Positions 14,996 to 30,510 of a stretch of DNA of 36,275 nt are shown in pieces. How positions within the stretch are numbered: the first letter of the stretch is position 1; each line of letters starts with the position of its first letter. The position numbers and the translations under genes were made by a program. The notes beneath the pieces are model-generated. The model saw only the letters and a list, made by a program, of their open reading frames with translations. It was not told the origin of the DNA and searched no databases. This DNA is from Chloroflexota bacterium (lineage in GTDB: Bacteria; Chloroflexota; Anaerolineae; UBA4142), in contig VGOB01000024.1 of assembly GCA_016865935.1 (NCBI GenBank), positions 1-36,275 of the forward strand. The letters are read 5' to 3'.

Positions 14996-17041
14996 TCAGT
15001 CCCCCAGCGCTTTGATCAATGCCTCCTTCACATCCGCATAAAACAAGATGCTGATTTTCATCGCCATTTCATCGCTCAGTTCATTCAGTTGCCGGCGTGC
15101 CGAGATGGGGATCAGGAGGGTTGTCGCACCTTTCTCAATCGCGTGTTCGGCGACGCTCACGGCGTTGGGAACAGGGTCGAGTCCTCCGCCGAGATTCAAC
15201 CCACCGACTACGACCAGCCCGCCCTTCAAACTCTTGGCGAGAAGCGCGCCGCATAACGCGAGCAGTGCCGGCAATCCCAGGAACGCTCCATTCTTTGCCG
15301 TATCAAACGCGCGTAACTGAACAGTGAACTCGTGCTCGCGTGGGTCTCGATCCCCTACCAAATCCTTGGCACGCGTCAGCAAATTCTGTTCGCCGTACTT
15401 TATGCTTTCTTTGAATGGACCGGGCACCGGGACGTTGATGATCGTCACACCCGAGCCGGGACCTTCGTTGACGTCAATGCGGTAAAGTCCCACGCCTTCG
15501 TCTATCCCACCAGGGCTGATTGCCCAAACCTGTCCAGGCGGCAGTGGATCGGTGCCAATCGAGTTTTCGCTTTGCAGTTCTGGAGTGACAACGAATTTCT
15601 CTATGCCATCTTCGCCCATTTGATAACTGAAATGTGTATTCCGAAATTCGGCGCTGCCAATCCGTTTTTGTTGCTCTTTGACGCGACGGCGGCACTCCAT
15701 CGCGAGGCGCACCGCCCATTCGATGTCCTCGTCGGCAATCGGCATTTCGCGATTAGGGTAAAGCAGTTTGAGCAAACCATCCACGGTCCGATTGACTGCC
15801 GTTGTATCGCGTCCGCTGAGCGCGCCGCCATAATTGACGCGGCCTTGAATTGCCGTGAGCCGATTATCCGAACGAAGTTGTGTCCAACACTCTGAAAGAA
15901 AGTCGCTCACAAGTCCAAAGTGTTCTGTGAACAGCAATTTGTCCATCTTGGGGATATCCCACCCCGGCAAGTAAGCGTGAATGCGATCCATGAACGCGGT
16001 ATCGTTTCGCATTTCGACGGGCAACGGTCCAAATAGATGCCCGATGCGCTGCTGATGTTCGACGTCTACCTCAAAGTTGCCGACGAAGACGAGACTCCCG
16101 CTGGCGCGAATACTTTCGCGCCCACGGCTAAATTCGCCGGACTCCATATAGCCCTTCATGATGTTGACGCCGTCTTTTTGATCGAACGAGACGCCGGAGA
16201 TTTCGTCAAAGCAAACGACGTCGTACTGGCACACCAAACCGCGCTGACCATTGCTGTTGTTGACGAACATGCGCGCGACAGTTGCCTTGCCGCCGGAGAT
16301 GAGGTGCGAGTACGGCGAGACCTGTTGGAACAAATGCGATTTGCCTGTGCCGCGCGGACCCAATTCGACAGTATTAAAGTTGCGGGCGACAAACGGAACC
16401 ATCCGCAAGATTAAAACATCCTGGGCACGCGAAGAAAAGTGTTCTGTTTCAAAACCAATACTCCGGAGAAGAAACTGCTTCCACTCTGGCACAGTAAACG
16501 CTTCACGCCCGCGCGCCAGTTCGTCGAGGACGCCGTGTTTGGATAACTGAATAGGGCGGAGCGAGGTCACTCCGAACGGACGCCCAGCTTTTTCTTGCGC
16601 GATCGCAGAATCGTACTCCAGTTGAATTTCGGCGTAAAAGCCGCCCGTGAGAATGCGCTCGTTGGACGCAACCATCGCGGCGTCAATGCGCGCATCGGTC
16701 AGCCGAAGACTGGGGAGGGTGGCGATATATGAATCGGTGTACGTGTCGAGCCGTGCAGTAATGAGATCAATCAGTTTGACCGAGCCGCGTTCGCGCGCGC
16801 GCGATTTAAACAACTCCTCTTCGCCGGGGCGCACAGTCCGTTCACGCATCTGTCGCTCGACGATTTCAAGCCCTTCCGTGATTTCTACCTCGTTCGTGCT
16901 GGCGCAATACCGCCCAAGCAGAAATTCGCCAACATAGGTTGGCACAGGATAGCGTCCGCGAAATTTCAGCGCGAGGTCTTTGCGGACGATGTACCCTTCG
17001 AATGCTTTGGCGGCAAGTTGATCGAGTTTATCGAGTTCCAT
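14996..17041 (-). CDS. brxL: BREX system Lon-like AAA+ protein BrxL
   Basis: N-terminal FEGYIVRKDLALKFRGRYPVPTYVGEFLLGRYC, GPRGTGKSHLFQQVSPYSHLISGGKATVA, CFDEISGV, C-terminal Lon-like GGLNLGG...IPISARRQL. The ORF can start at 17053 or 17041. Confidence 0.92.
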   Translation of the reverse strand: MELDKLDQLAAKAFEGYIVRKDLALKFRGRYPVPTYVGEFLLGRYCASTNEVEITEGLEIVERQMRERTVRPGEEELFKSRARERGSVKLIDLITARLDTYTDSYIATLPSLRLTDARIDAAMVASNERILTGGFYAEIQLEYDSAIAQEKAGRPFGVTSLRPIQLSKHGVLDELARGREAFTVPEWKQFLLRSIGFETEHFSSRAQDVLILRMVPFVARNFNTVELGPRGTGKSHLFQQVSPYSHLISGGKATVARMFVNNSNGQRGLVCQYDVVCFDEISGVSFDQKDGVNIMKGYMESGEFSRGRESIRASGSLVFVGNFEVDVEHQQRIGHLFGPLPVEMRNDTAFMDRIHAYLPGWDIPKMDKLLFTEHFGLVSDFLSECWTQLRSDNRLTAIQGRVNYGGALSGRDTTAVNRTVDGLLKLLYPNREMPIADEDIEWAVRLAMECRRRVKEQQKRIGSAEFRNTHFSYQMGEDGIEKFVVTPELQSENSIGTDPLPPGQVWAISPGGIDEGVGLYRIDVNEGPGSGVTIINVPVPGPFKESIKYGEQNLLTRAKDLVGDRDPREHEFTVQLRAFDTAKNGAFLGLPALLALCGALLAKSLKGGLVVVGGLNLGGGLDPVPNAVSVAEHAIEKGATTLLIPISARRQLNELSDEMAMKISILFYADVKEALIKALGD

Positions 17042-17045
17042 AGCA

Positions 17046-19358
17046 TCAACCACCTATCGTTGTCAATTCCTGTTTGTAGATCACGCCTTCATCCGAGACC
17101 ACAACCACGAATGCGGCAGCGCCCATCCGTTCATCGTCCTCCACCAACAGTGAAGCATTGCCCTCAGCATCCGGCGCTTTGGGAGACGCGAGTGAGGTCG
17201 CCGGGTCACCGGCTTTGCTGCGAAGATCTACCTGAATGTCGGCAAGTCTACCCGCGATTTTGACGATGCAGCGCAATCCTCTCCACGTTACCGACTTGAT
17301 CTCGTAACTGGCTTGCGCGTCAGATGCTCGCGTAATCGTAAGAAGCGGGACGACACACTCCTGCGGGGACACGCCACCGTGTTCGTACTCCTTGCCAGTT
17401 TCAAAGCAACTGATGCCAGGCGCGATAGCAATGCGCGCGTCTTTGTCCCAATGCCACGGCACGGTCTGGAGATCGGTTTTGGCGTCGTCTTTCAAACGCG
17501 CACAGCGCCCCTTACGAATCTCGGTCAGATGTTCCGGCAATTGCGTTTTGGGCAACCCATCCGGCGCCATCAACCATCCATGATCGGTGATGATGACTAC
17601 CTTCTCCCAACCAGCGTCCACAAGCGATTGAATGCGCTGTACGAGCGTGCGTAATTCGCCGACGAGATGATGCGCGATTTTCCAACCATTGCCGTGTCCG
17701 TACTTGTCAATCTCTCCCAATTCTGTCCACGCCGATCTAGCAGGATCGCCAGTTTCTTCCGCGTCAAGCACTTGATAGCCGGCTTGGTCGAGCGTCTGGC
17801 GCAAGACCTCGGCGGTGACACGCACGTTGTTTTCCTTGACGTACGTGTCGAAAAGAATTTTGCCTTTGCCTGAAAACTTATCGGCAACGGGCGACACGGC
17901 AGGCTTGGCAGTTGGCGTTATGGTGGGTAGGGCGGTAAGATGCCACCCGACTTGGCAATTCAAACCGCGTTGCCGAAGCACACTTGCCAGTTGCTGCGCC
18001 ACATCAAAGCGTAGCGCGTCAGAAAAGAGGATGCATGCGCGCGAATCAATTTTCGCGGTTGGGTTCGTCGCGGGATACCCATTGAGCGCAATCGCTTTTT
18101 GAAACTCTGTCGCCAATTTTTCCAGCCACGGACGATACACCGTGCTGATCGCGGCTTTGACGGCGGCAACGTCTTCTGCGCGTTCGACGGCGGCAAGCGC
18201 GTTTAGCGCCGCGAGATCCACGCGCCAACCACGTTCCGTGTATGCCGCTGCAATTTCGCCGACGGTCGCGCCGGTGACCGGTTGCTCGGCTTCGCGCGCC
18301 AGAGTTGCCAAGTGCTCAAGCGCAACTGCGAGCGGCGCAAGTCCTAACGTACTCCACACCCACGCGCGCCGCGCCGCATTTTCGGTTTCGAGCGAATGAA
18401 TGAGTGAACGCGCATCAATTTCGTACTTCTGCCGCAGTTCACCCAGTTTTCGGCGCAACTGTTCTTCGGCGCGTTCGTTGTCTTGGGGCCACTCCGGCAT
18501 CAGTTCATCGAACATACTGATTTGCGGACGCGCATTGCGGAGTAAGGCAGGCAAGTTGGGGTACGCCTGTGGCGCTTCGGCAAATCGTTGCCACACCCGC
18601 GCCCACGCGCCTTGACGTTCGCCCAGTTTGCGCGCTCCCGTGATTTCGCCGTCTTGCTCGGGATGAAAACCGTACTTGCTCTTGCACAATTGGCAGAACG
18701 CCGTCCATTCTTCCGGTGCACACCGTTTGGCGTACTCGGCAGAATTGTTGAGCCAGAGGAGTAGATTACGCGCATCATCCGGGTTGAGCAACGCATCGAA
18801 GAACGCGGCTTTGAGCGGGGCTTGCTTTTGCAGATTGGCAATCGGTTCATCGGCAAGTTTCGAAAGCGCGCGTTGCATCGCCTCACGCGTTGCATCGTCC
18901 GCGCTGATAGGAATACCCAGTCCGCCATCTCTCGTTTGCAGAAACGCGGCGATACTCCATTCGCGTCCGTTCTTGTGAATCCACAAAACGCCGCGATATT
19001 GCAATTCGGCGAGGGGTTGCAAATGCTTGGGGCAATCTTCGACCGCGCGTAGTTCTTGCTTGCTGACGCCGGGGAGATAGATAATGGGGACGCTTTCGGC
19101 AGGTAGCGCAAACTCTGGCAACACGCCGGCAATCACGCACCGGAGCCAGTACGCGGGACCAGTGCGCTCGGCAGGATTGTACGCGCCCAGGGTGAAGATC
19201 GGCAGGCGTTCACACAATCGCGGAATCAGCGTTTGCCATTGGCGTTCTTTGTCGAGCCAAAGAACTGCCGCGGGCGCCGCCTGATCGTTTTTGTTGTACG
19301 CGCCCGCGTTCTTGAGCGCATCGGCGAGCGCGTCGAGGAAGGTTGATGCAGTTGGCAT
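17046..19358 (-). CDS. pglZ: BREX system alkaline-phosphatase-like protein PglZ (type B-like)
   Basis: YNKNDQAAPAAVLWLDKERQWQTLIPRLCERLPIFTLGAYNPAERTGPAYWLRC...IIYLPGVSKQELRAVEDCP; VVIITDHGWL metal-binding motif. Confidence 0.92.
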   Translation of the reverse strand: MPTASTFLDALADALKNAGAYNKNDQAAPAAVLWLDKERQWQTLIPRLCERLPIFTLGAYNPAERTGPAYWLRCVIAGVLPEFALPAESVPIIYLPGVSKQELRAVEDCPKHLQPLAELQYRGVLWIHKNGREWSIAAFLQTRDGGLGIPISADDATREAMQRALSKLADEPIANLQKQAPLKAAFFDALLNPDDARNLLLWLNNSAEYAKRCAPEEWTAFCQLCKSKYGFHPEQDGEITGARKLGERQGAWARVWQRFAEAPQAYPNLPALLRNARPQISMFDELMPEWPQDNERAEEQLRRKLGELRQKYEIDARSLIHSLETENAARRAWVWSTLGLAPLAVALEHLATLAREAEQPVTGATVGEIAAAYTERGWRVDLAALNALAAVERAEDVAAVKAAISTVYRPWLEKLATEFQKAIALNGYPATNPTAKIDSRACILFSDALRFDVAQQLASVLRQRGLNCQVGWHLTALPTITPTAKPAVSPVADKFSGKGKILFDTYVKENNVRVTAEVLRQTLDQAGYQVLDAEETGDPARSAWTELGEIDKYGHGNGWKIAHHLVGELRTLVQRIQSLVDAGWEKVVIITDHGWLMAPDGLPKTQLPEHLTEIRKGRCARLKDDAKTDLQTVPWHWDKDARIAIAPGISCFETGKEYEHGGVSPQECVVPLLTITRASDAQASYEIKSVTWRGLRCIVKIAGRLADIQVDLRSKAGDPATSLASPKAPDAEGNASLLVEDDERMGAAAFVVVVSDEGVIYKQELTTIGG

Positions 19359-19360
19359 GG

Positions 19361-19990
19361 CTAATCCAGTGGAAACCACGTCTGGAGAATTTGGCGTAAC
19401 CGCGTGAAGCTTGGGTCGTGGCAACGTTCCAATCCGACCTGTCTGGTGAGTTGTTCAAAGAGCGCGGCAGAACGACGTTTGTTCGTTTCTTGCAGAACAT
19501 CTTCCAGCAATTCTTTCGGTTGATGCGGCTTGGACGCATCCGTGTCCCAGCAGCCACGCTCATCTGCCAATGCGCGAATTGTGTCCCAGTCGGTGCCCAG
19601 CACTCGCGGCACATGCGGCGAATCAGACCAGACCCAGATTTCAAGTTCAGGATCGATGACGATGACGGCATTGCGATCTTGCCAACCGCTTTGATCGAGA
19701 TCAGTTTGAACCTTGCGAGCCATTTCATCCACTGTTGCTGGGCTACCGTCCCAAGTCGCATCGAAGACGACCAAGGCATATCGGTATTGGTTGACAAAGG
19801 TGCGCAAGAAATTACCTGCGCCGGTGAACACACCTGGGTCACGTTGCGGATGAGGAAAAATTTCAAAGGATGGTTGGTGGATACGTAAAGAATCGCAACG
19901 TGTATTCAACAGCGTGGCGATAGTCTTTTCTTGCTGAGTGTCAGCAACCAGTACGATCAAATCTTTCGGTCGAGAGGACTTGGCATTCAT
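19361..19990 (-). CDS. MAD4-like / RloB-DUF4276-like (possible TOPRIM-fold) protein embedded in the BREX operon
   Basis: IVLVADTQQEKTIATLL...GAGNFLRTFVNQYRYALVVFDATWDGSPA...VIVIDPELEIWVWSDSPHVPRVLG...KPHQPKELLEDVL...RRSAALFEQLTRQVGLERCHDPSFTRLRQILQTWFP; resembles from memory the MAD4 protein of MADS. Confidence 0.6.
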   Translation of the reverse strand: MNAKSSRPKDLIVLVADTQQEKTIATLLNTRCDSLRIHQPSFEIFPHPQRDPGVFTGAGNFLRTFVNQYRYALVVFDATWDGSPATVDEMARKVQTDLDQSGWQDRNAVIVIDPELEIWVWSDSPHVPRVLGTDWDTIRALADERGCWDTDASKPHQPKELLEDVLQETNKRRSAALFEQLTRQVGLERCHDPSFTRLRQILQTWFPLD

Positions 19991-21300
19991 CCGAGGACTC
20001 CGGATGCGTAAAGCGTGGCAAGATCAGTTTGCCCCTTCCAATCGCGCAGGCGGGGGTGATCGTTGCCGGCAACAATATCGGTTGCTCCGGATGGGTTCTT
20101 GGCAAAGCAAAGTATCTGATCCAGTTGCGCCAGGCGTAACATCAGCGGGGAGTGCGTCGCTAACAGCACCTGTCCATCGTATACTGACGACAAAGACTGG
20201 AAAACCGCTTCAATCGCGCGCGGATGAATTCCATTTTCTGGCTCTTCAATCAAATACACGCCACCGTGTTCGGGCAAATACGCCAACAGCGTTAGCGCTA
20301 GAAAGCGGAGCGTGCCATCGGACAAAAGCCACGAAGGCACCGGCTCGCCGCCCGACTTGTATTGAACCGCCAAATACAAGTGACGATCTTCTTTGCGAGT
20401 GACGACGTCAATTTTTTGTACATCCGGCAATACCGTTCGCACATGATCGAGCCACTCGCGACAAGTCTCGGGATTCTTTTTGTCCAACTCTTGGACGACC
20501 AGGGGCAAATTTGAACCATCCATGCGAAAAGTACGTGGCAAGGAAGGACTACACGGACGACGCATCATGGCGCTGTTGAGCGCGAGCGTTTGAATATTAT
20601 TCATCAGCAAGTTGCGAATCCAAATCGAAACAGGAAACTTTTCACTATCTTCCGGTAGGTTTGCCAGTGCCGCTTTGCGCGGTCCAACGCGAAACACGTT
20701 ATTCCATTTGGTTGTCTCGGAATAGAATGTGTCGTTGCCCGTGTCGGTTTTGGTAACCACCTTTCGCCAACCCGCGGTACGTCTGCCACTTGTCGTCATC
20801 AGCGTTTCGGGAGGAGTCGGTTCCATCGGGAATAGCATAACTTGCTGGGGCGGCGTGTCTTCCATTTCTTCGGATGAAAGCCAAAGCGTCTCTCCCAAGA
20901 TCGTCAACTCACCCTCTTTTCCATTTTCACCAATCGAAACGGCGTACCGCGCGCGTTTGGTCTTGCCATTCGTCACAGATTGCTGAACGAAATCCGGCAC
21001 GTTCAACTCGATCGCCAATTCAAAGCGATCAGATGCCTGATTGAATATCAACTCGCTTGACTCAGTGGCGCGCCCACGCGACTCTCCCGGTTTTTCGCGG
21101 ATGAGCAAGGCGTCTTCCAGACCCAGCTTCAGAAAATCACCGAGCAAGCCCATCACGTCGAGAAATGCGCTCTTGCCGGTCGCGTTCGCGCCAACAAGAA
21201 TCTGAAATGGCTGGAGCGGTTGATCGATATAATGCAAGCACCGATAATTCAATGCCTGCACACGCGAAATAATGGGTAGTCGTTTTCTGCGTTTTGTCAT
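19987..21300 (-). CDS. AAA family ATPase (AAA_21 / MAD3-like) embedded in the BREX operon
   Basis: Walker A LVGANATGKSAFLDVMG; Walker B GVYLIEEPENGIHPRAIEAVFQSL; H-loop LLATHSPLML; 4-nt ATGA overlap with the downstream MAD4-like gene. Confidence 0.85.
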   Translation of the reverse strand: MTKRRKRLPIISRVQALNYRCLHYIDQPLQPFQILVGANATGKSAFLDVMGLLGDFLKLGLEDALLIREKPGESRGRATESSELIFNQASDRFELAIELNVPDFVQQSVTNGKTKRARYAVSIGENGKEGELTILGETLWLSSEEMEDTPPQQVMLFPMEPTPPETLMTTSGRRTAGWRKVVTKTDTGNDTFYSETTKWNNVFRVGPRKAALANLPEDSEKFPVSIWIRNLLMNNIQTLALNSAMMRRPCSPSLPRTFRMDGSNLPLVVQELDKKNPETCREWLDHVRTVLPDVQKIDVVTRKEDRHLYLAVQYKSGGEPVPSWLLSDGTLRFLALTLLAYLPEHGGVYLIEEPENGIHPRAIEAVFQSLSSVYDGQVLLATHSPLMLRLAQLDQILCFAKNPSGATDIVAGNDHPRLRDWKGQTDLATLYASGVLG

Positions 21301-21383
21301 CGTTCCCTCACGACTTCAATTTGCTGTTCAATTCGCGATTGTATCCCGGCTTGGAGTTTGAGTCAACATACCAACCTCCAAAA

Positions 21384-24300
21384 TCACTTCTTCGCCTTCG
21401 CCTTCTCCGCGCGCGTGTAATGCAAATCGTTCAGCCGCTCACTCCCATCAGGATTCTTGCCGCGATCCTTGTTCCAGTTGATCGTGAATTTGCTCCGCAA
21501 GACGCCCGCCATCACGAACGGGCGAATGTTCAGCCGCACGCCGTCGTTCAGGTCTGGCTCCCAGCCCAGCGGTTGCTCTGCCAACGATTTCCAGCGCACG
21601 AAAATATCATACGGTGGTTCGCCTTCTCGAATCTGTTGCAATTTCTTTTGCAGTTCCAGCGCGGCGACGAGCCGACCATCCGCGCCTGCGACGCCTGCTT
21701 TTTGGTCTGCGCGTTGCGCCGTAATCCACGCGCCGAGATAGTGATAGATGAGATTGTCGAGCCGCGTGGCATCCAGTTTGTGATAGTTGACGAGCGCGGC
21801 AAAGCCGTCCTTGCGTCCGTCCCAAATGTGCCAGATGAATGGGCGATTGTGAAAGAGTTGGCAGTGCTGGGCAAAGAATCCATCACGCAACCATTCGTCC
21901 AGTCCTTTGCCCGCAAAGCCAGCATTGGCTAAAAGTTGCGCAATGCTATCTGGCGACAAGCCATCTTCAAATGCTTGATTGAGAAATGCGCGCAGATGTT
22001 CTGCCGCAGGTTGTTCTCCAGCGACGGGCGGCAAGCAAACGATGCCATCCTTGTCTGCGAGTTCAACGAGTTTGTCTGCTTTTTGTTGATGCCATTGATA
22101 ACCCAGCAAGCGCGCGACGGCGACTTGGAGAATGTTATCCGATGTGGCAACATCGCCATCAAAGAGCCATTGCGTTGGGTCGTGTGAGCCTGGTTCGGGA
22201 AGTGAGCCTTTTTCTTCAGCAACTCTTTGCCAATGCTCCAGATCGAATGGTATTTTGAGCAGGGCTCCAGGTGTAATTCCGATTCTCTTATCAACGCGGC
22301 GCACGGCCTCACGAAAATCGTGCGACGAGCAAAAAGCCCAAATAGCCCCAAGATGAGCTTGGTTGTGAGGAACAAGCACTGCGGTTTTTTGATCGTACAA
22401 TTCACCTGTGTACATAGTACAGTGCAATTGCCTCATACGAGTGACGGCAACGCCTTGACGTCCATAGGCTACATTGTCTACACCGGGTCGCAACATACCT
22501 TTTCCACCAGTACCCCAGTCAATAACGAACTCTCTCCCAGAATACTCTTTTGTTGAAATGACGGTACCCTGCATCGGTCGCCACGGAGGCAACAATGTCG
22601 GGAGTTCCCAAAAGGCTCTTGTCCAACGCTCAGTGTCGCCACTCACTATACCTCGGGGACTTGTTGCATATTTCTCTAGTAAAAGTCCACTCCTGCTTAT
22701 CTCAAAAGTTATTTGATCGTCTGGGTTATTGTGCTGGTCTGCCTGTGTCAGAGAAATCAGTCCGGCGTTTCGTAATCTCTCGGCTTTTTCGGTAGGCAGA
22801 CGCGGAGCTGAGGAATCAAATCCAACAAATGTGTGCGTATTACATGGAGGCATATTGGAATCAATCACAAGTGCAACAAAGGCACCTGCAGCTTGTGAAC
22901 TCTCAAATCCTCCCTCACCAAGCGTGGAAATCATGTTCAATGATTTCTTGGCCAAGATGGTTTTTCGTAGTTTCTTATAAGAACTCAAAAACATCCAGTT
23001 CTGTGGTGTGACCAAAGCGCATGTACCACCTTCGGCAGAAAAAAACCAACAACGTTGAAGAAAGGCAGTGGCTAGGTCAGCCTTCCCTTCAGAATATTGA
23101 GTTGTGAGGTAATCTCTCAGTGTCTTATCCTGCTTTTTTATTCCCAGGTACGGTACATTCGTCGCGACGAGTGTGTACTTGCCAGCCAGCAACTGCGTCG
23201 CGCTCGCCACCTCTTCTGCCGCCGCGCCAAATACTGCCGCAACTGGGTCTTCGCTCTCGCGTTCCTTCGCCAACGCCTTTTCCAACACGGGCGCAACTTG
23301 CGCGTAATCCGCCGTGAACATTCGGTCGCGCGCCGCCAACTCGGCAGGATTGATTAAACTTCCCAGGTCAGGCGCATTCTTGAACAATTCATACAATCGC
23401 TCCAGCGTCGTTCGCAGGTTTACATCCTTGCCCGCCAGTTTCGTCCACTCGCTCAACTGCCCTTGCACCGCAATCCCCGTGCACGCAATTTGCGGAATCG
23501 GAATCTTGCGATATCCACCCGACTTCCACGCCGCCAGCGCGAGCGCAAACGCCGCAATCTGCGTACAGCGCGGGTCCAGTTCCAATCCAAAGATATTGTC
23601 GCGCAAGACCGCATCGCCCGCGTCCACCGCTGACAAACCTTCTTCTTCCATTCGCATTTTGCGAATCATCTCGAACGCCGCCACATCGAAATGTCCCGAA
23701 CCACAACACGGGTCCATAAATCGAATCAGCGCGGCGCGTTCGGGAAATCCTGGGAACGTCCCCGCCGCAGGCGTGCCATCGTCAAGGAAACGCAGATAGG
23801 CGAATTCACGCACGAGCGGACTGTTCGGATGTCGCGCCGCCCACCACGCGCCGAGCGTATTGTCGAGCAAAAAGCGCACCATATAATCTTCGGTGAACAA
23901 TTGCGTCACAGGCGAAATATCCGCACCGCCGATTTTGCGCTCGCTCGCGTTTACCTCTTTCTTTTTCTTCGATTGCCAAAACTGATAAACCCAGCCCAGC
24001 GCATCATCCGCGACGAACAACGCGGGCGGCAAACTTGCCAGGATGTTCTCCAACGCCTGCCGACCTTCGAGTGCGAAACGCACGCGCGCGCACGGGTCGT
24101 CAGTGCGAAAAATCCCAGGAAGCATCGCGCTCGCGTACCGCGCGGCGACTTGCCACGCATCGGGTTCACCTTCTTCCGCTGCCAGTTCTTCACATTCCGT
24201 CAGCGTCACGGCGACGCCCGTTGGATGCATCAACAAATTATTTTCGGCGAGGAAACGCGCAAACAGCATTCGATGCCATTGCGAGTACGCAATCTCTTCG

Positions 24301-24527
24301 ACGAGCATCGGCGTGCCATCCTGCCGATTGCCATTGCCGAGTTGCCTGGCTTTGGCGCGCAGAGCATTGCGGAGTTGGCGTTGCTCTGGCGATAGCGAAG
24401 TAAACGCGTGCTCTTTATCGAAAGCCAGCGTGGCAAGCACGACCCGCGCCGCGTCTTCGGATGCGTCGCGGGCATTGATAATCGCGCGTTCGAGCGCACT
24501 ACGGAGTTCAGTGGGGAGTGGGGGCAA
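21384..24527 (-). CDS. pglX: BREX adenine-specific DNA methyltransferase PglX
   Basis: FMDPCCGSGHFDVAAFEMI SAM-binding motif and LVATNVPYLG catalytic motif IV; N-terminal MPPLPTELRSALERAIINARDASEDAARVVLATLAF typical of PglX. Confidence 0.93.
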   Translation of the reverse strand: MPPLPTELRSALERAIINARDASEDAARVVLATLAFDKEHAFTSLSPEQRQLRNALRAKARQLGNGNRQDGTPMLVEEIAYSQWHRMLFARFLAENNLLMHPTGVAVTLTECEELAAEEGEPDAWQVAARYASAMLPGIFRTDDPCARVRFALEGRQALENILASLPPALFVADDALGWVYQFWQSKKKKEVNASERKIGGADISPVTQLFTEDYMVRFLLDNTLGAWWAARHPNSPLVREFAYLRFLDDGTPAAGTFPGFPERAALIRFMDPCCGSGHFDVAAFEMIRKMRMEEEGLSAVDAGDAVLRDNIFGLELDPRCTQIAAFALALAAWKSGGYRKIPIPQIACTGIAVQGQLSEWTKLAGKDVNLRTTLERLYELFKNAPDLGSLINPAELAARDRMFTADYAQVAPVLEKALAKERESEDPVAAVFGAAAEEVASATQLLAGKYTLVATNVPYLGIKKQDKTLRDYLTTQYSEGKADLATAFLQRCWFFSAEGGTCALVTPQNWMFLSSYKKLRKTILAKKSLNMISTLGEGGFESSQAAGAFVALVIDSNMPPCNTHTFVGFDSSAPRLPTEKAERLRNAGLISLTQADQHNNPDDQITFEISRSGLLLEKYATSPRGIVSGDTERWTRAFWELPTLLPPWRPMQGTVISTKEYSGREFVIDWGTGGKGMLRPGVDNVAYGRQGVAVTRMRQLHCTMYTGELYDQKTAVLVPHNQAHLGAIWAFCSSHDFREAVRRVDKRIGITPGALLKIPFDLEHWQRVAEEKGSLPEPGSHDPTQWLFDGDVATSDNILQVAVARLLGYQWHQQKADKLVELADKDGIVCLPPVAGEQPAAEHLRAFLNQAFEDGLSPDSIAQLLANAGFAGKGLDEWLRDGFFAQHCQLFHNRPFIWHIWDGRKDGFAALVNYHKLDATRLDNLIYHYLGAWITAQRADQKAGVAGADGRLVAALELQKKLQQIREGEPPYDIFVRWKSLAEQPLGWEPDLNDGVRLNIRPFVMAGVLRSKFTINWNKDRGKNPDGSERLNDLHYTRAEKAKAKK

Positions 24528-24558: not shown

Positions 24559-25107
24559 TCAAATCATGCGTTCGAGCGCATTCAGGTGCGCGTGAATCTG
24601 CTGCGCGTCCAGCGCAAATTCTGGCGCGCGCGTCAGCATTGCCTGCGCCAGTTGGATCAACCGCTGCAACTCGATCCGTTTGTGTTGGAGGAGAAAGACC
24701 ACATCCTCCAAATCCGACTCAAAGCCGCGTTCGATTTTGCTTAACGCGATGCTGTACAGATCGAAAACGTAAACAGTCAATTTGCCGAATTGCCCAATCT
24801 GGACGTGGCGTCGTTCCGACTCGGACGGCAACGGAAGAAAATCTTGGAACGGGATGGCTTCGACCTCAATCTGCATTTCGACGGCGGCACGCTGAACCAA
24901 CTGCTCCAGTTCGCCCCGCTGGGCTGGCAAATCACTGCCCACATAATCCAGGTCAACGGTAGGACGAGGACTGCCCAGCAGAATGAGCGCACTGCCGCCG
25001 AGCAAGTACAAATTGGTTGGATGTTCGCACAGTTCACCCACTCGCGCCAGAAAAGCGCGAATGTCCGCGTCGCTCAGGTGGCAAGTTGAACGCGAGGGTA
25101 GTTCCAT
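24559..25107 (-). CDS. DUF6036 / AbiEii-like nucleotidyltransferase-fold protein
   Basis: NLYLLGGSALILLGSPRPTVDLDYVGSD: GGS...DxD motif of MNT-type nucleotidyltransferases; ATG at 25107 overlaps the upstream gene by 34 nt. Confidence 0.8.
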   Translation of the reverse strand: MELPSRSTCHLSDADIRAFLARVGELCEHPTNLYLLGGSALILLGSPRPTVDLDYVGSDLPAQRGELEQLVQRAAVEMQIEVEAIPFQDFLPLPSESERRHVQIGQFGKLTVYVFDLYSIALSKIERGFESDLEDVVFLLQHKRIELQRLIQLAQAMLTRAPEFALDAQQIHAHLNALERMI

Positions 25108-25613
25108 TGCTGCAAAACCTCCCGATGACGAATCAATCGTTCGGCGGCGTGGCGGTAGGTCCCGACCCAGTTGATGGTCAAGCCAGTCAGCGCCGCGTGG
25201 CGTGCGCCGAGCGTACGCAGACTGACACTCACGTCGGCAGAGAGGACAATGCCCAACGCCGCGCTGAACCAATCAGGCAAACGCGGTTGCGCGCCCAATA
25301 CCCGCGCTAGCCGGTCCCGATATTCACGCTGCAAGAGCAGCGCGGCAGTATAGAAGCATTCGCAAGTGACGAGCGGCAAAGCGGATAGCGCTTGCGCGGC
25401 GATCCGCGCGTCATCGGCAAATTCGGGATGGCGCAGAATCAGCGGGACAATCGCCGACCGGAGTCGCGCCTCTGGCGCGCAGGCAAGACCTTGCAGTAGT
25501 TCAACGGGCGTCACCTGCGGATTCCCCACTCCACCGGCGAGAAATAGCACGTCCAACGCATCGAGCGCGCCGACGAGTTCTGCGGGAGCAAGTTGTTTGT
25601 CCATCAATGACAT
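25074..25613 (-). CDS. Hypothetical protein partnered with the nucleotidyltransferase, between brxC and the NTase gene
   Basis: Long ORF in operon frame with ATG start; 34-nt overlap with the NTase gene; no family recognised. Confidence 0.75.
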   Translation of the reverse strand: MSLMDKQLAPAELVGALDALDVLFLAGGVGNPQVTPVELLQGLACAPEARLRSAIVPLILRHPEFADDARIAAQALSALPLVTCECFYTAALLLQREYRDRLARVLGAQPRLPDWFSAALGIVLSADVSVSLRTLGARHAALTGLTINWVGTYRHAAERLIRHREVLQQWNYPRVQLAT

Positions 25614-25629
25614 ATTTTACACCTGCGCA

Positions 25630-28600
25630 TCACTGCAAAATTACGGGTTTCCCATCATCAATCGCTATCATAATCTCAGCGCGCAAGTCGGCGAGGTAGG
25701 CATTGACCTCATCCGATTTGTGCAGCGTCGCTGGGCGCGGATGAATATAGACCGCTTGTGGTTCCAGCAACTTGCCCGCTTGTTCGCGCGCCCGCGCCAC
25801 ACGTGAAGGCAAGCCCGCGATCTTGTCATCCCAGTACTCCAACGACATCGCATCGAGCGTTCGCAAAAGTGCATCACCCGAGCCCACGTTGATTTCCGCA
25901 ATCGGTTCGAGCGTATTGCCCGACAGAATCCGCGCGCGATCGGTTTCACCCAGTTTCTGCCACTCGACGGACGTTTCCAACTCACTCACTTGGCGATTGC
26001 GTTCGTCCACCAAGCGTTGGCGCGCATTTTGAACGGCTTGGCGCAGCGCATTTGTCAGCGCGGTTGTCAACGGCGGCACCGGGTCTGGGTCAGTCAACAA
26101 CGTTCGCCCAAAACGAATCGCTTCGACTTGTGGTTTGATTTCAGCGGCAATCGGCAAAGTGCTCGCGTGCCGCATCAATTCTTGGAGCGTGTCCCAGCGC
26201 GGCTTGCGTTCCGCGATCTGCTTTTGCGCGTTGGTCCATTCCTTGTAATTGTTCAGCAACTCGGCGGACCGATTCGCCGCGGCAACCAATTGCTCATTCC
26301 CGCCAAGCGCACGCAACTGGTCAATGTTCGCGGTAGATGGACGTGGCGGAAGCGGCGGCTCTCCGCCAGCCGCGTTCGCCAGTTCAAGTAATCGCTCCAA
26401 CGCGCTTGCGAGCCCCTCGGATTCATCGCCAGTTTTGCATTGCGCCCCCATCTCGGATAAAAGTTTGCGAACGGCGATCCGTTGCGGGGCAGTGACCGTC
26501 ACGCCTTCGCTGTAGAAATCAATCCCGCCGATCTGGTTTTGCGGAATCTGTTTCAACGCGACAGGTTGTCCGTTCTTCATCACGCGCACAAATCCACCTG
26601 CGACGAGAACGAAGAGCGACGCATCCACTGCATCCTGGGGCCAGCCGTATCCTTCACCGGTAAATTGTTTGCGAATTTCCGTTCCTTTTTTGCCTGCGCC
26701 GCCAATGAACGTGCGAATTTCTTGGCAAGTGAAATACTTGTCCGCATCCCCGTTGTAACCGATTGCCGACAAGGCATCCGCTGCGCCTTCACTCGCGCGC
26801 TTGAGCACCGTGCCCCAGTTAGAAAAATCGGCGAACTTGAATTTGGGGAACAGGCGCACGAGCGCGGCATCCACTGCACTCTTGACCGATTCGATAATAT
26901 TCCCCTCGATAACCTCATTCCCGCCGCCTTGAAACACTTTGGCATTGTTGATCCCGCCGAGTACCAAACCGTCGAGTTGGCTCTTTTCAATCGTGCGGCG
27001 CGATTCCATCGCCGCGCGCGCTTCGACTCCGCCGGGTGTTGTCGGAGTGGGACGTTGATCAATCGTCTCTTGCGCGGCGGCAAAACGCGCCAGCGCATTC
27101 TTGAGTTGGTCCGCTTCCCAACGCGGCAAAAAGACATAGACGATGGGACTCTCCTGCCCGGCGGCAATCGCTTCATCGCGCACCGCTTTTTCCGAGACTG
27201 ACCACTCGTCGCGCACCCAGACTGGGACCGTGCCGCTATTTTTCTGCGGAGTGACGTTTCCGAAAATCAATTCGAATCGGCGCGGCGTTTTGCTCGCGCC
27301 TTGCGTCAACGTGATGCCTTTGAGCAACACACCCAGCGCGTTGCGAAACGCGGTCGCGCGATCGCTCGCGAGGCGCGTGTCGTCCGCCAAAAGTCGGGCC
27401 AGGCGTTTCCGAAAGTCGCCTTCCCATTCCGCGCTTTCGCGCGTTTGCAAACGATATTCGTCGCCGACGAGCATCACAGTGCCGTCGTCTGCAAGTGATT
27501 GAAGCAGCGACGGGATACGCTGGCGCAAATCAGAACTGCCTGCCGGAAGATTCTCGACCAGGAGATCGGCGAGTGTGTCCGCCGTTGCTTTAACGCCGGT
27601 CTGCGCGATGCCTTCGCTCGGCAATTTGCCAATTAGAAAAATCAGCGCGCCCAAACGCGAGCGGAGTTTGCCGTCGGGCGTGCCATCGTCTTGCCGGGCA
27701 ATCATCGTCGCGATGTCACGTAAAAGCACGCCGCTTTGGAGCATATCGCCGGAGAGTTGATTGTAAATCAAATCACCAGCGACGACCGTGCCCAAAGACT
27801 CGTTCGCAATACCGCGATTCGCTTCATGCACGATCCGAAGTTGCGTGCGTAGTTGTCCCGCCATCCCCGCATTATCCACCGCGCGCAGAACGCGTTCCCA
27901 AAAACGCCGGCGCGTCGGCAAGAGCGGATAATCCGATACCAGTTCGCGCGAGTCGGTTGGTTCAGGGCCAATCTTCGTCCCGACCAAGTGCCGCTCGATT
28001 TCGCCGCTCATCGTGTCGAGCATCTCTTTCAGTGCGGCGACCTGGGTTTGCTTTTTGCGAAGCACCACCTCACGCACCACGCGCTCAACATCCGTATCCG
28101 AAAGCATGACCGAAACGGTGAAACGTCCCTGTAATTTCTGCAATTGCGGTGTCGCTTGCAAAGCCGCTTGCCCCGTTGCCACAAACAACAGGCGACTGCC
28201 GAATCGCGAGGAACATGCCTCGACCACATTCTGCACGGCAAGCGTGCGCGCCGGGTCTTCGCCCATAAACTGCTGGAGTTCGTCAAAGACGAGAAGCGTG
28301 CAAGGCAATTTGTCGGCAGATGCAGATTTCAATCTGAGCACATCCTCCATCGTCTTGAACAATTCGTCGTCTGAAACATCATCGCGATTTGCGAATTGTT
28401 CTTTGAGCAAACTACGCGCTGCGGCTGGCGTAGATGCAAAACCTGGGAACGCTTTGAGCAGAGCATTCGTTACAACCGGCGAGACGTAAAGTTCGTAGAG
28501 TTCATTATTGAGATCTTGACCTTGTTGTTCAACCTCGCGCTTGAACACTTCATAATATCCGTTCTTCATCAGCCAAATTACAAACGTCGCTGGTGCGTAC

Positions 28601-29091
28601 TTCTCAGGCAGGCCCGCGCTTTTGAAGAGAATGCCGAGCAGCGCCAATCGCACGTTGTTCCCTGCCGCTGCACCCAACGTGCCGCCCGCAGACCAAAGTC
28701 CGCCCAGTCGTTTGCCGGCGGTGCTGATCTCTTTGAACAAGTCGTTAATATCATTGGGCAGTTTGACAATACTGCGTGCACGCGCGCCATCTGGAAATTC
28801 GATGTCGCGCCAGAGGTATTCCAAGACGCGTGCCAAATGAGATTTACCACTGCCGTAAAAACCGCTAATCCAAACGGCAGGCTGTTCTGGCTTGTCCAAG
28901 TTGGAGAGATAGGTCGACAGAATGCGCTCTAGTCCGCGCCGATACTCGCCCTCACAGACAAAGAACTCGAGTTCGTAACGCAACACAGCCCATTCTTCTG
29001 GCGAATGGGGATCGAGGATTTTCGCAACGCCGTCATTTGGAATAGTGAAGGTTGTCGGATCGCGGAAAAAGACCTCTCGATTCAGTGTCAT
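25630..29091 (-). CDS. brxC: BREX system P-loop ATPase BrxC (DUF499-like)
   Basis: FFRDPTTFTIPNDGVAKILDP...LSTYLSNLDKPEQPAVWISGFYGSGKSHLARVLEYLW; LLVFDELQQFMGED. Confidence 0.94.
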   Translation of the reverse strand: MTLNREVFFRDPTTFTIPNDGVAKILDPHSPEEWAVLRYELEFFVCEGEYRRGLERILSTYLSNLDKPEQPAVWISGFYGSGKSHLARVLEYLWRDIEFPDGARARSIVKLPNDINDLFKEISTAGKRLGGLWSAGGTLGAAAGNNVRLALLGILFKSAGLPEKYAPATFVIWLMKNGYYEVFKREVEQQGQDLNNELYELYVSPVVTNALLKAFPGFASTPAAARSLLKEQFANRDDVSDDELFKTMEDVLRLKSASADKLPCTLLVFDELQQFMGEDPARTLAVQNVVEACSSRFGSRLLFVATGQAALQATPQLQKLQGRFTVSVMLSDTDVERVVREVVLRKKQTQVAALKEMLDTMSGEIERHLVGTKIGPEPTDSRELVSDYPLLPTRRRFWERVLRAVDNAGMAGQLRTQLRIVHEANRGIANESLGTVVAGDLIYNQLSGDMLQSGVLLRDIATMIARQDDGTPDGKLRSRLGALIFLIGKLPSEGIAQTGVKATADTLADLLVENLPAGSSDLRQRIPSLLQSLADDGTVMLVGDEYRLQTRESAEWEGDFRKRLARLLADDTRLASDRATAFRNALGVLLKGITLTQGASKTPRRFELIFGNVTPQKNSGTVPVWVRDEWSVSEKAVRDEAIAAGQESPIVYVFLPRWEADQLKNALARFAAAQETIDQRPTPTTPGGVEARAAMESRRTIEKSQLDGLVLGGINNAKVFQGGGNEVIEGNIIESVKSAVDAALVRLFPKFKFADFSNWGTVLKRASEGAADALSAIGYNGDADKYFTCQEIRTFIGGAGKKGTEIRKQFTGEGYGWPQDAVDASLFVLVAGGFVRVMKNGQPVALKQIPQNQIGGIDFYSEGVTVTAPQRIAVRKLLSEMGAQCKTGDESEGLASALERLLELANAAGGEPPLPPRPSTANIDQLRALGGNEQLVAAANRSAELLNNYKEWTNAQKQIAERKPRWDTLQELMRHASTLPIAAEIKPQVEAIRFGRTLLTDPDPVPPLTTALTNALRQAVQNARQRLVDERNRQVSELETSVEWQKLGETDRARILSGNTLEPIAEINVGSGDALLRTLDAMSLEYWDDKIAGLPSRVARAREQAGKLLEPQAVYIHPRPATLHKSDEVNAYLADLRAEIMIAIDDGKPVILQ

Positions 29092-29648
29092 TTCTTGCTA
29101 CTCCTATCTTTGGCAGTGATGGCGATAGCTAAATAGTTCCAACCATCGCGCGCGTCAAGCAGGCGATAGTTCGATCCTTCATGCCGACCGGGGAAAAAGC
29201 CGAGCAATCGTCCGCGCACAAACGGAGCGACCGTTTCAAACAGCACCGATGCGCGGGTGAGACCGAACAAAGAACCGATGCCAAGCACGGCAACAACGGC
29301 ATCCTCTCCTACCTCAGGGGAGGTCAGCGTATCTTGGACTAGTTTTGCGGCATAGCCCGCAAAGCCCTGAAGCGCAAGTTCCATATCTTCGGGTTGCTCA
29401 AAGTACGCTTCGCGGTACTTGTGCTGCGACATCCATTTGGCAAAAGCGTCAGTCAGATCAACCAATGCCCACGCGTGTCCAGCATTTCGCGTGGCAACCT
29501 CAAAGTCGTGAATTCGCAAACGCACTCGCCGTTCTTGGCTTGGCTCATAGATGGCAAACCAAACTTTTTGCGCCCCAGCCAGCGTGCGATCCCAGGGCAA
29601 CCGTGCAACGTCTTCGTACTCGTGGATCAAATCATCAATCTCGCTCAC
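29088..29648 (-). CDS. brxB: BREX protein BrxB (DUF1788)
   Basis: VRGRLLGFFPGRHEGSNYRLLDARDGWNYLAIAI; 4-nt overlap with brxC. Confidence 0.92.
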   Translation of the reverse strand: MSEIDDLIHEYEDVARLPWDRTLAGAQKVWFAIYEPSQERRVRLRIHDFEVATRNAGHAWALVDLTDAFAKWMSQHKYREAYFEQPEDMELALQGFAGYAAKLVQDTLTSPEVGEDAVVAVLGIGSLFGLTRASVLFETVAPFVRGRLLGFFPGRHEGSNYRLLDARDGWNYLAIAITAKDRSSKK

Positions 29649-29712: not shown

Positions 29713-30510
29713 CTAGATTGGAAGTGTGGATTGCCGACCGCGCAACAAATAACGAAACCCTACCTCAGTAATTCCACCGGCGTGACGGTAGTCAATCCAT
29801 CCGCGTTGCGCTGCGACCAATGCGAGATCGTAAAGCGTGTGAATGGGCGCATCGAGCAGTTGGCACCAAAGCGTCTGGAACAGTGCTTCGCCTCGCACAC
29901 TGCAGAGGAAACCTAGGAACAGCGCGTATGCTAAACTCGCCGGCGTGACGTGGGCTTGAGCACGAATCTTGCGCAAGCGTCCTTGCAGATGACCCGACTG
30001 TTGCCATGATGACGCGGTGCGTCTGCCGATACCTGCGAGCACTCCAGGACTGTAGCGATTCGGGAAAGATTTGTGGACCGCGTCGGCAAACATATGCGAA
30101 GTAACATCTTTACCAACAGGAGTTGCCAAAATCAGGTCTGCGGTCGCGCGTAAGAGCGGATCCCGCGCCGTCGCGCAGAGCATCGCGAGCATTGGCTGAG
30201 ACTGCACATCGTCATCCCACATCTCCCGCAAAACGCGAAAAAGGTTGGTTTGCAGGTTCAGCGCGTAGAACTCTCGCAAGCGGCGAAAAGATTCCTTGCG
30301 CGCGGCGGTCGTCTTCTTCATCAGCGTATTTTGATCGAGGACCGCTGTCCGATACTCTTCCAAGTTCGCCGAGACAGGGCACGCCGAAAGCAACTGCCGC
30401 AATTCAGCCAACATAATCGTACGACTGCCATGCGAACCTATGGGGTCGTTGACGAAGCCTAATCTGATTGCTTCATTGGGAACACGCAACAACTTCACAC
30501 CTATACTCAA
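29713..30510 (-). CDS. brxA: BREX protein BrxA (DUF1819)
   Basis: GSRTIMLAELRQLLSACP...YRTAVLDQNTLMKKTTAARKESFRRLREFYAL..FRVLREMW. Start uncertain: ATG at 30414, or TTG at 30510 that keeps GSRTIM. Confidence 0.88.
   Translation of the reverse strand: MSIGVKLLRVPNEAIRLGFVNDPIGSHGSRTIMLAELRQLLSACPVSANLEEYRTAVLDQNTLMKKTTAARKESFRRLREFYALNLQTNLFRVLREMWDDDVQSQPMLAMLCATARDPLLRATADLILATPVGKDVTSHMFADAVHKSFPNRYSPGVLAGIGRRTASSWQQSGHLQGRLRKIRAQAHVTPASLAYALFLGFLCSVRGEALFQTLWCQLLDAPIHTLYDLALVAAQRGWIDYRHAGGITEVGFRYLLRGRQSTLPI

Follow-up and report, generated by a model that had tools for sequence, protein, structure and literature searches.

A type 1 BREX operon with inserted genes

The window analyzed here, a 36,275-nucleotide stretch of DNA, contains a six-gene type 1 BREX operon that is complete and apparently intact, with its genes in the canonical order brxA-brxB-brxC-pglX-pglZ-brxL as judged by PADLOC, NCBIfam, and Pfam. 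Between pglX and pglZ, uninterrupted and on the same strand, lie two further genes, which encode an ABC ATPase of the MAD3 family and a small Toprim-like protein of the MAD4 family (Table 1).

Table 1. Genes and sequence features of the BREX operon in the window
Feature	Position	Strand	Evidence or remark
brxA	29713..30510	-	PADLOC BrxA, 275.1 bits
brxB	29088..29648	-	PADLOC BrxB, 228.3 bits
brxC	25630..29091	-	NF033441, 755.7 bits (cut-off 400)
179-aa ORF, partner of the nucleotidyltransferase by position	25074..25613	-	ORF reading
DUF6036/AbiEii-like nucleotidyltransferase, 182 aa from an internal ATG	24559..25107	-	PF19502, 38.7 bits (cut-off 23.6)
pglX (brxX) methyltransferase	21384..24527	-	PADLOC PglX, 1351.4 bits; NF033452, 356.8 bits (below the cut-off of 500)
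Promoter-like TTGACT-17-TACAAT	21338..21366	-	Within the 83-nt pglX-MAD3 gap; weak evidence
MAD3-family OLD/PtuA-type ABC ATPase, 437 aa	19987..21300	-	NF047739, 527.7 bits; Pfam AAA_21, 97.4 bits
MAD3 Walker A, GANATGKS	21169..21192	-	G37, N39, G42, and K43 invariant in 34 relatives
MAD3 Walker B, LIEE (of LIEEPENGIHP)	20242..20253	-	Invariant in 34 relatives
MAD4-family Toprim-like putative nuclease, 209 aa	19361..19990	-	NF047734, 230.4 bits
pglZ, type B	17046..19358	-	NF033450, 881.9 bits (cut-off 400)
brxL	14996..17053	-	PADLOC BrxL, 951.6 bits; TIGR02688, 433.7 bits (cut-off 329.3)

A preliminary description had reported this pair with its motifs, its overlap, and its setting in a canonical BREX operon, and these details were confirmed, including the identity of the flanking genes. 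It had also likened the two proteins to MAD3 and MAD4. Both in fact pass the NCBIfam equivalog cut-offs (420 bits for MAD3 and 160 for MAD4; E values of 2.5e-158 and 2.3e-68), and on sequence comparison their homology to these families is far above chance. With the PADLOC models, the ATPase scores 140 bits for HEC-01A, 103 for AriA, and 90 for mad3, and the small protein scores 34 bits for mad4.

The pair is fitted tightly into the operon, as the description had held. The stop codon of MAD3 and the start codon of MAD4 share 4 nt (ATGA, 19987-19990), and 2 nt separate the MAD4 stop (19361) from the most plausible ATG of pglZ (19358). This short gap, which has no evident Shine-Dalgarno sequence, suggests translational coupling, and we infer that the pair is now probably co-expressed with the BREX operon. 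We considered a promoter of its own upstream of MAD3, which is a weak lead at most: two promoter-like sites occur in 2.4 kb and 1.3 are expected by chance, so there is no excess. The GC content of the pair (0.52) is slightly lower than that of the BREX genes (0.54 to 0.58).

Two other features of the operon deserve mention. The PglX of the window carries the motif NVPY, as does the PglX of the second BREX locus described below; the usual form of this methyltransferase motif is NPPY. In addition, a second pair of genes (24559-25613) is inserted between brxC and pglX, so that this BREX operon carries more than one cassette. Its ORFs share about 34 nt; the nucleotidyltransferase has GGSA and DLD motifs, and the 179-aa ORF has no match in Pfam or PADLOC.

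The ATPase and its small partner

MAD3 retains intact Walker A, signature, Walker B, and H-loop motifs, all of them invariant in 34 relatives. Its predicted model (pLDDT 87.4) matches the folds of the PtuA, GajA, and OLD ATPases, each of which is partnered with or fused to a nuclease. PtuA of Septu and retron systems is the closest of these folds; its partner there is the HNH protein PtuB, whereas the partner here is Toprim-like.

MAD4 is modeled as a Toprim-type protein with a near-complete variant of the active site, and it is probably, though not certainly, a nuclease. The preliminary description had called the small protein Toprim-like, and the predicted structure and fold comparison support that view. 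The AlphaFold2 model, built from a 53-row alignment, has a pLDDT of 95.3 and a core of alternating beta strands and alpha helices, and a single PDB fold match falls under an E value of 0.001, that to the C-terminal Toprim region of Burkholderia pseudomallei OLD (6nk8; E 6.4e-4 and probability 1.00, but TM 0.40). DUF4276 is matched weakly by 14 of 54 MAD4 relatives (best E 7e-5), and in one case, the MAD4 of L004, the match scores under the family cut-off. The MAD4 of the window itself has no DUF4276 match in a profile search, and phmmer and profile searches of MAD4 against PDB sequences found no relative. In a viral fold library, a Megavirus protein was the top match and an RloB-like protein came fifth (E 0.01); we set this result aside as evidence.

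Conservation among the 54 relatives points to D17 (49), E21 (45), D77 (54), E115 (53) or E117 (52), and K154 (54) or K159 (54) as candidate active-site residues. The Toprim active site of the B. pseudomallei OLD protein includes E400, E404, D455, D457, E508, and K562 (PMC6755086). Matched by order along the fold and not on coordinates, E400 corresponds to D17, E404 to E21, D455 to D77, E508 to E115 or E117, and K562 to K154 or K159. D457 corresponds, again by order, to residue 79, which is variable in the family and a threonine in the window. The MAD4 of the window therefore departs from the Toprim consensus of an invariant glutamate plus a DxD motif: the family has D17 in place of the glutamate (G or C in 5 of 54 relatives), and D77 of the DxD is kept while the second aspartate is lost. 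With an off-consensus site, catalysis by MAD4 is not assured.

Relatives of the pair and the question of MADS

A search of genome contigs with MAD3 returned 501 relatives, and we determined the genomic context of the best 80. Among these, one other pair is embedded in BREX (L011), where the order is brxC, small genes of unknown family, MAD3, MAD4, and pglX. Others are embedded in Hma/type 1 BR operons (L028, L033, L058, L061, L066, L067, and L082), in type III (L039, L054, and L083), type I (L041), or type IIG (L070) restriction-modification operons, or with a helicase and an AddB-like nuclease (L044). In four loci (L016, L038, L047, and L055), the Hma matches are partial or distant. About 60 of the 80 loci have no such partner recognized; they are called alone in this sense, given a limited marker set and several contigs that end within a few kilobases. 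Wherever embedding is clear, the recognized partners are on the strand of the pair. We dropped as a clue the observation that the pair always adjoins a methyltransferase gene, because every internal junction touches that gene in Hma and type III operons.

A further sample was drawn independently of similarity. Carriers make up 21 of 790 genomes, which come from two phyla (15 carriers of 390 and 6 of 400). Flanking genes were examined in most of these carriers (L148 was too short, and the contexts of the window, L004, and L033 had been established beforehand). One of these carriers has the pair in BREX (the window) and two have it in Hma operons (G325 and the genome of L033); for the others no partner was recognized. 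The MAD3/MAD4 family is widespread, is mostly found alone, and has been inserted repeatedly into different DNA-methylation defense operons.

In a quick maximum-likelihood tree of 82 MAD3 proteins, with support from SH-aLRT alone, the window clusters with six unpartnered loci (SH-aLRT 99), whereas L011 belongs to another supported clade, and the pair has therefore entered BREX on at least two occasions. The embedded or alone label changes 15 times on the tree, and at least 10 times when only supported branches are counted, numbers that unrecognized partners would alter. A strong correlation links the distances among MAD3 proteins to those among MAD4 proteins (Mantel r 0.74; 0 of 2,000 permutations), from which it follows that the two genes evolve as a pair. 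Around the six clade mates of the window, ten neighbors were checked by Pfam, and most are housekeeping genes (LptF, radical-SAM/TRAM, and solute-binding proteins); the exceptions are an AAA_21 ATPase (L008) and an NB-ARC/TPR protein (L012).

A few individual loci are unusual. Further MAD3-like AAA_21 ATPases lie close to the pair at L008:5862-15354. In L012 and L157, MAD3 has no recognizable neighboring MAD4 and is followed by a 416-aa ORF without a Pfam match, possibly a different partner. At L004:8517-10423 the pair lies amid unrelated genes, and its MAD3 looks truncated at the N terminus and is perhaps decaying.

The names of the two families raise the question of whether the locus is a BREX/MADS hybrid, that is, a remnant of a MADS locus or its fusion with BREX, as the preliminary description had suggested. 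MADS (Maestri et al. 2024) shares with the window the protein families, their order, the 4-nt overlap, and the position after a DNA methyltransferase gene, and NCBIfam names both genes of the window MAD3 and MAD4. However, no other MADS gene passes its cut-off anywhere in the window, the operon included, and none of MAD1, MAD5, MAD7, and MAD8 adjoins the pair. In the genome, which is 93.8% complete and has a single copy of MAD4, the best MAD2 match reaches 314.9 bits against a cut-off of 720 (a true MADS scores 1015), and MAD6 finds only partial, generic matches to kinase-like domains at 26-37% identity. Nor do the models discriminate between contexts. The MAD3 model (NF047739) gives 547 bits for the true MADS, 522 for the BREX copy of L011, 514 for the Hma copy of L067, and 506 for the unpartnered L007, and the MAD4 model (NF047734) gives 233, 229, 218, and 234, respectively, so the label marks a traveling module and not MADS. 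The window pair is also closer to its nearest unpartnered relatives (60-61% identity for MAD3 and 48-52% for MAD4) than to the pair of the plasmid MADS (39% and 31%), and it nests among unpartnered loci in the tree, in which the MADS MAD3 has a very long branch of unsure placement. On these results, with MAD2 and MAD6 as the further MADS genes sought across the genome, we reject the hybrid, which we regard as very improbable. The true MADS locus (L005), on a Piscinibacter plasmid, is the one plasmid locus with MAD4, and no MAD4 was found in viral contigs and phages. Separately, a 1308-aa protein with NERD and protein-kinase domains, distantly MAD6-like (26%), is encoded immediately downstream of brxL in another BREX operon (L133:1426-5352).

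Possible role of the module and its place among known systems

We think it somewhat probable that the pair is a complete module of an OLD-ABC ATPase and a Toprim-like protein inserted into type 1 BREX, where it would act as a backup layer made of a sensor ATPase and a nuclease. MAD3 would oligomerize, keep MAD4 inactive, and sense some sign of infection; an ATP-driven change would then release or activate MAD4, and MAD4, as a metal-dependent nuclease, would cut tRNA or DNA and stop phage growth at the expense of the cell. The pair would in this way form a second layer behind BREX. PARIS offers a precedent, since AriA holds AriB, which cuts tRNA when phage is sensed, and the association of an ABC ATPase with a Toprim protein is the plan of PARIS, with MADS listed among such systems (PMC12409363). 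Many loci have no recognized partner, so the module can do without BREX and its functional link to BREX may be loose.

How close that link is separates the main alternatives. The pair may be an independent defense module for which the BREX operon is just a secure place to settle and be expressed, the two being mechanistically unconnected, a reading that we find possible but doubtful. Its nearest kin adjoin housekeeping genes, sister BREX operons lack the pair, and a promoter-like site precedes MAD3; yet such sites are no more frequent than chance predicts, the spacing to pglZ suggests translational coupling, and embedded copies share the orientation of their partners. At the other extreme, MAD3 might specifically sense inhibition of BREX, for example when a DNA mimic binds PglX, and fire MAD4. 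This is a special case of the backup-layer reading and is plausible by analogy with PARIS, which has the same architecture and in which AriA responds to Ocr, a protein that both inhibits BREX and triggers PARIS (PMC12839542, PMC12409363). Both BREX insertions (window and L011) touch pglX, but with two of five junctions doing so in each operon, contact in 2 of 2 has a chance of about 0.16, and most relatives have no recognized modification operon to guard; we consider a BREX-specific trigger unlikely. A general version, in which MAD3-MAD4 has been recruited repeatedly into BREX, Hma/BR, type I, IIG, and III restriction-modification systems, and MADS and causes the death or arrest of the cell once the methyltransferase complex of its host operon is inhibited, seems to us less likely again. 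It is also conceivable that MAD4 is a catalytically inactive Toprim-like regulator and that the pair modulates BREX (for instance PglX or PglZ) without cleaving nucleic acid. The non-canonical first acid and the missing second aspartate of the DxD would fit, but D77, E115, E117, K154, and K159 are near-invariant in 54 relatives and the module occurs without BREX, and we hold this to be improbable. The backup-layer reading accordingly remains the one we prefer.

The likeness to PARIS that the preliminary description had drawn holds for the two-gene plan of a sensor ABC ATPase with a small Toprim partner. It does not extend to the families: the window pair matches MAD3/MAD4 and HEC-01A best and AriA models lower, the small protein (19361-19990) has no match to the AriB model of PADLOC, and the residues of its Toprim site depart from the consensus. 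HEC-01, an Hma-embedded candidate in PADLOC, is nearer for the ATPase, and the MAD3/MAD4 family also occurs in Hma loci, but MAD4 matches HEC-01B weakly (27 bits).

Rakesh and Krishnan (2026) described OLD-ABC/nuclease modules, foremost with Toprim, in at least 1242 BREX and BR taxa and proposed OLD-ABC/Toprim modules as backup effectors of BREX (PMC12839542, main text), so that the idea is already known. Their modules likewise consist of an ABC ATPase and a Toprim-like partner within the core BREX locus; in the main text they are termed PARIS-like and MADS is unmentioned. Defense genes embedded within other defense operons are also a known theme (Payne et al., as cited in PMC12255303). As far as the main text of PMC12839542 goes, the naming of the pair and its repeated insertion look new. 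Our contribution is to identify the pair and to report that it lives mostly unpartnered, has been inserted repeatedly, and entered BREX twice independently. Because the MAD3/MAD4 names and curated models mark a mobile cassette that is mostly outside MADS, annotation pipelines may call MADS components too often and overlook the module itself.

The family also provides a natural comparison, since one cassette occurs both inside and outside BREX and at two different junctions of BREX operons; the proposed backup role of OLD-ABC modules can be tested with it. The preliminary description had proposed a survey of BREX loci for the same gene order. Among 400 genomes of the phylum, we read three other operons whose PglZ is over the type-B cut-off, and none has MAD3-MAD4 between pglX and pglZ. 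In two of them (L132 and L133), pglX adjoins pglZ directly and brxC adjoins pglX, both inserted pairs being absent. In the third (L134:3923-8661), an SbcD-like phosphoesterase and an SbcC-like SMC-type ATPase lie between pglX and pglZ, and this junction therefore takes different ATPase-nuclease pairs.
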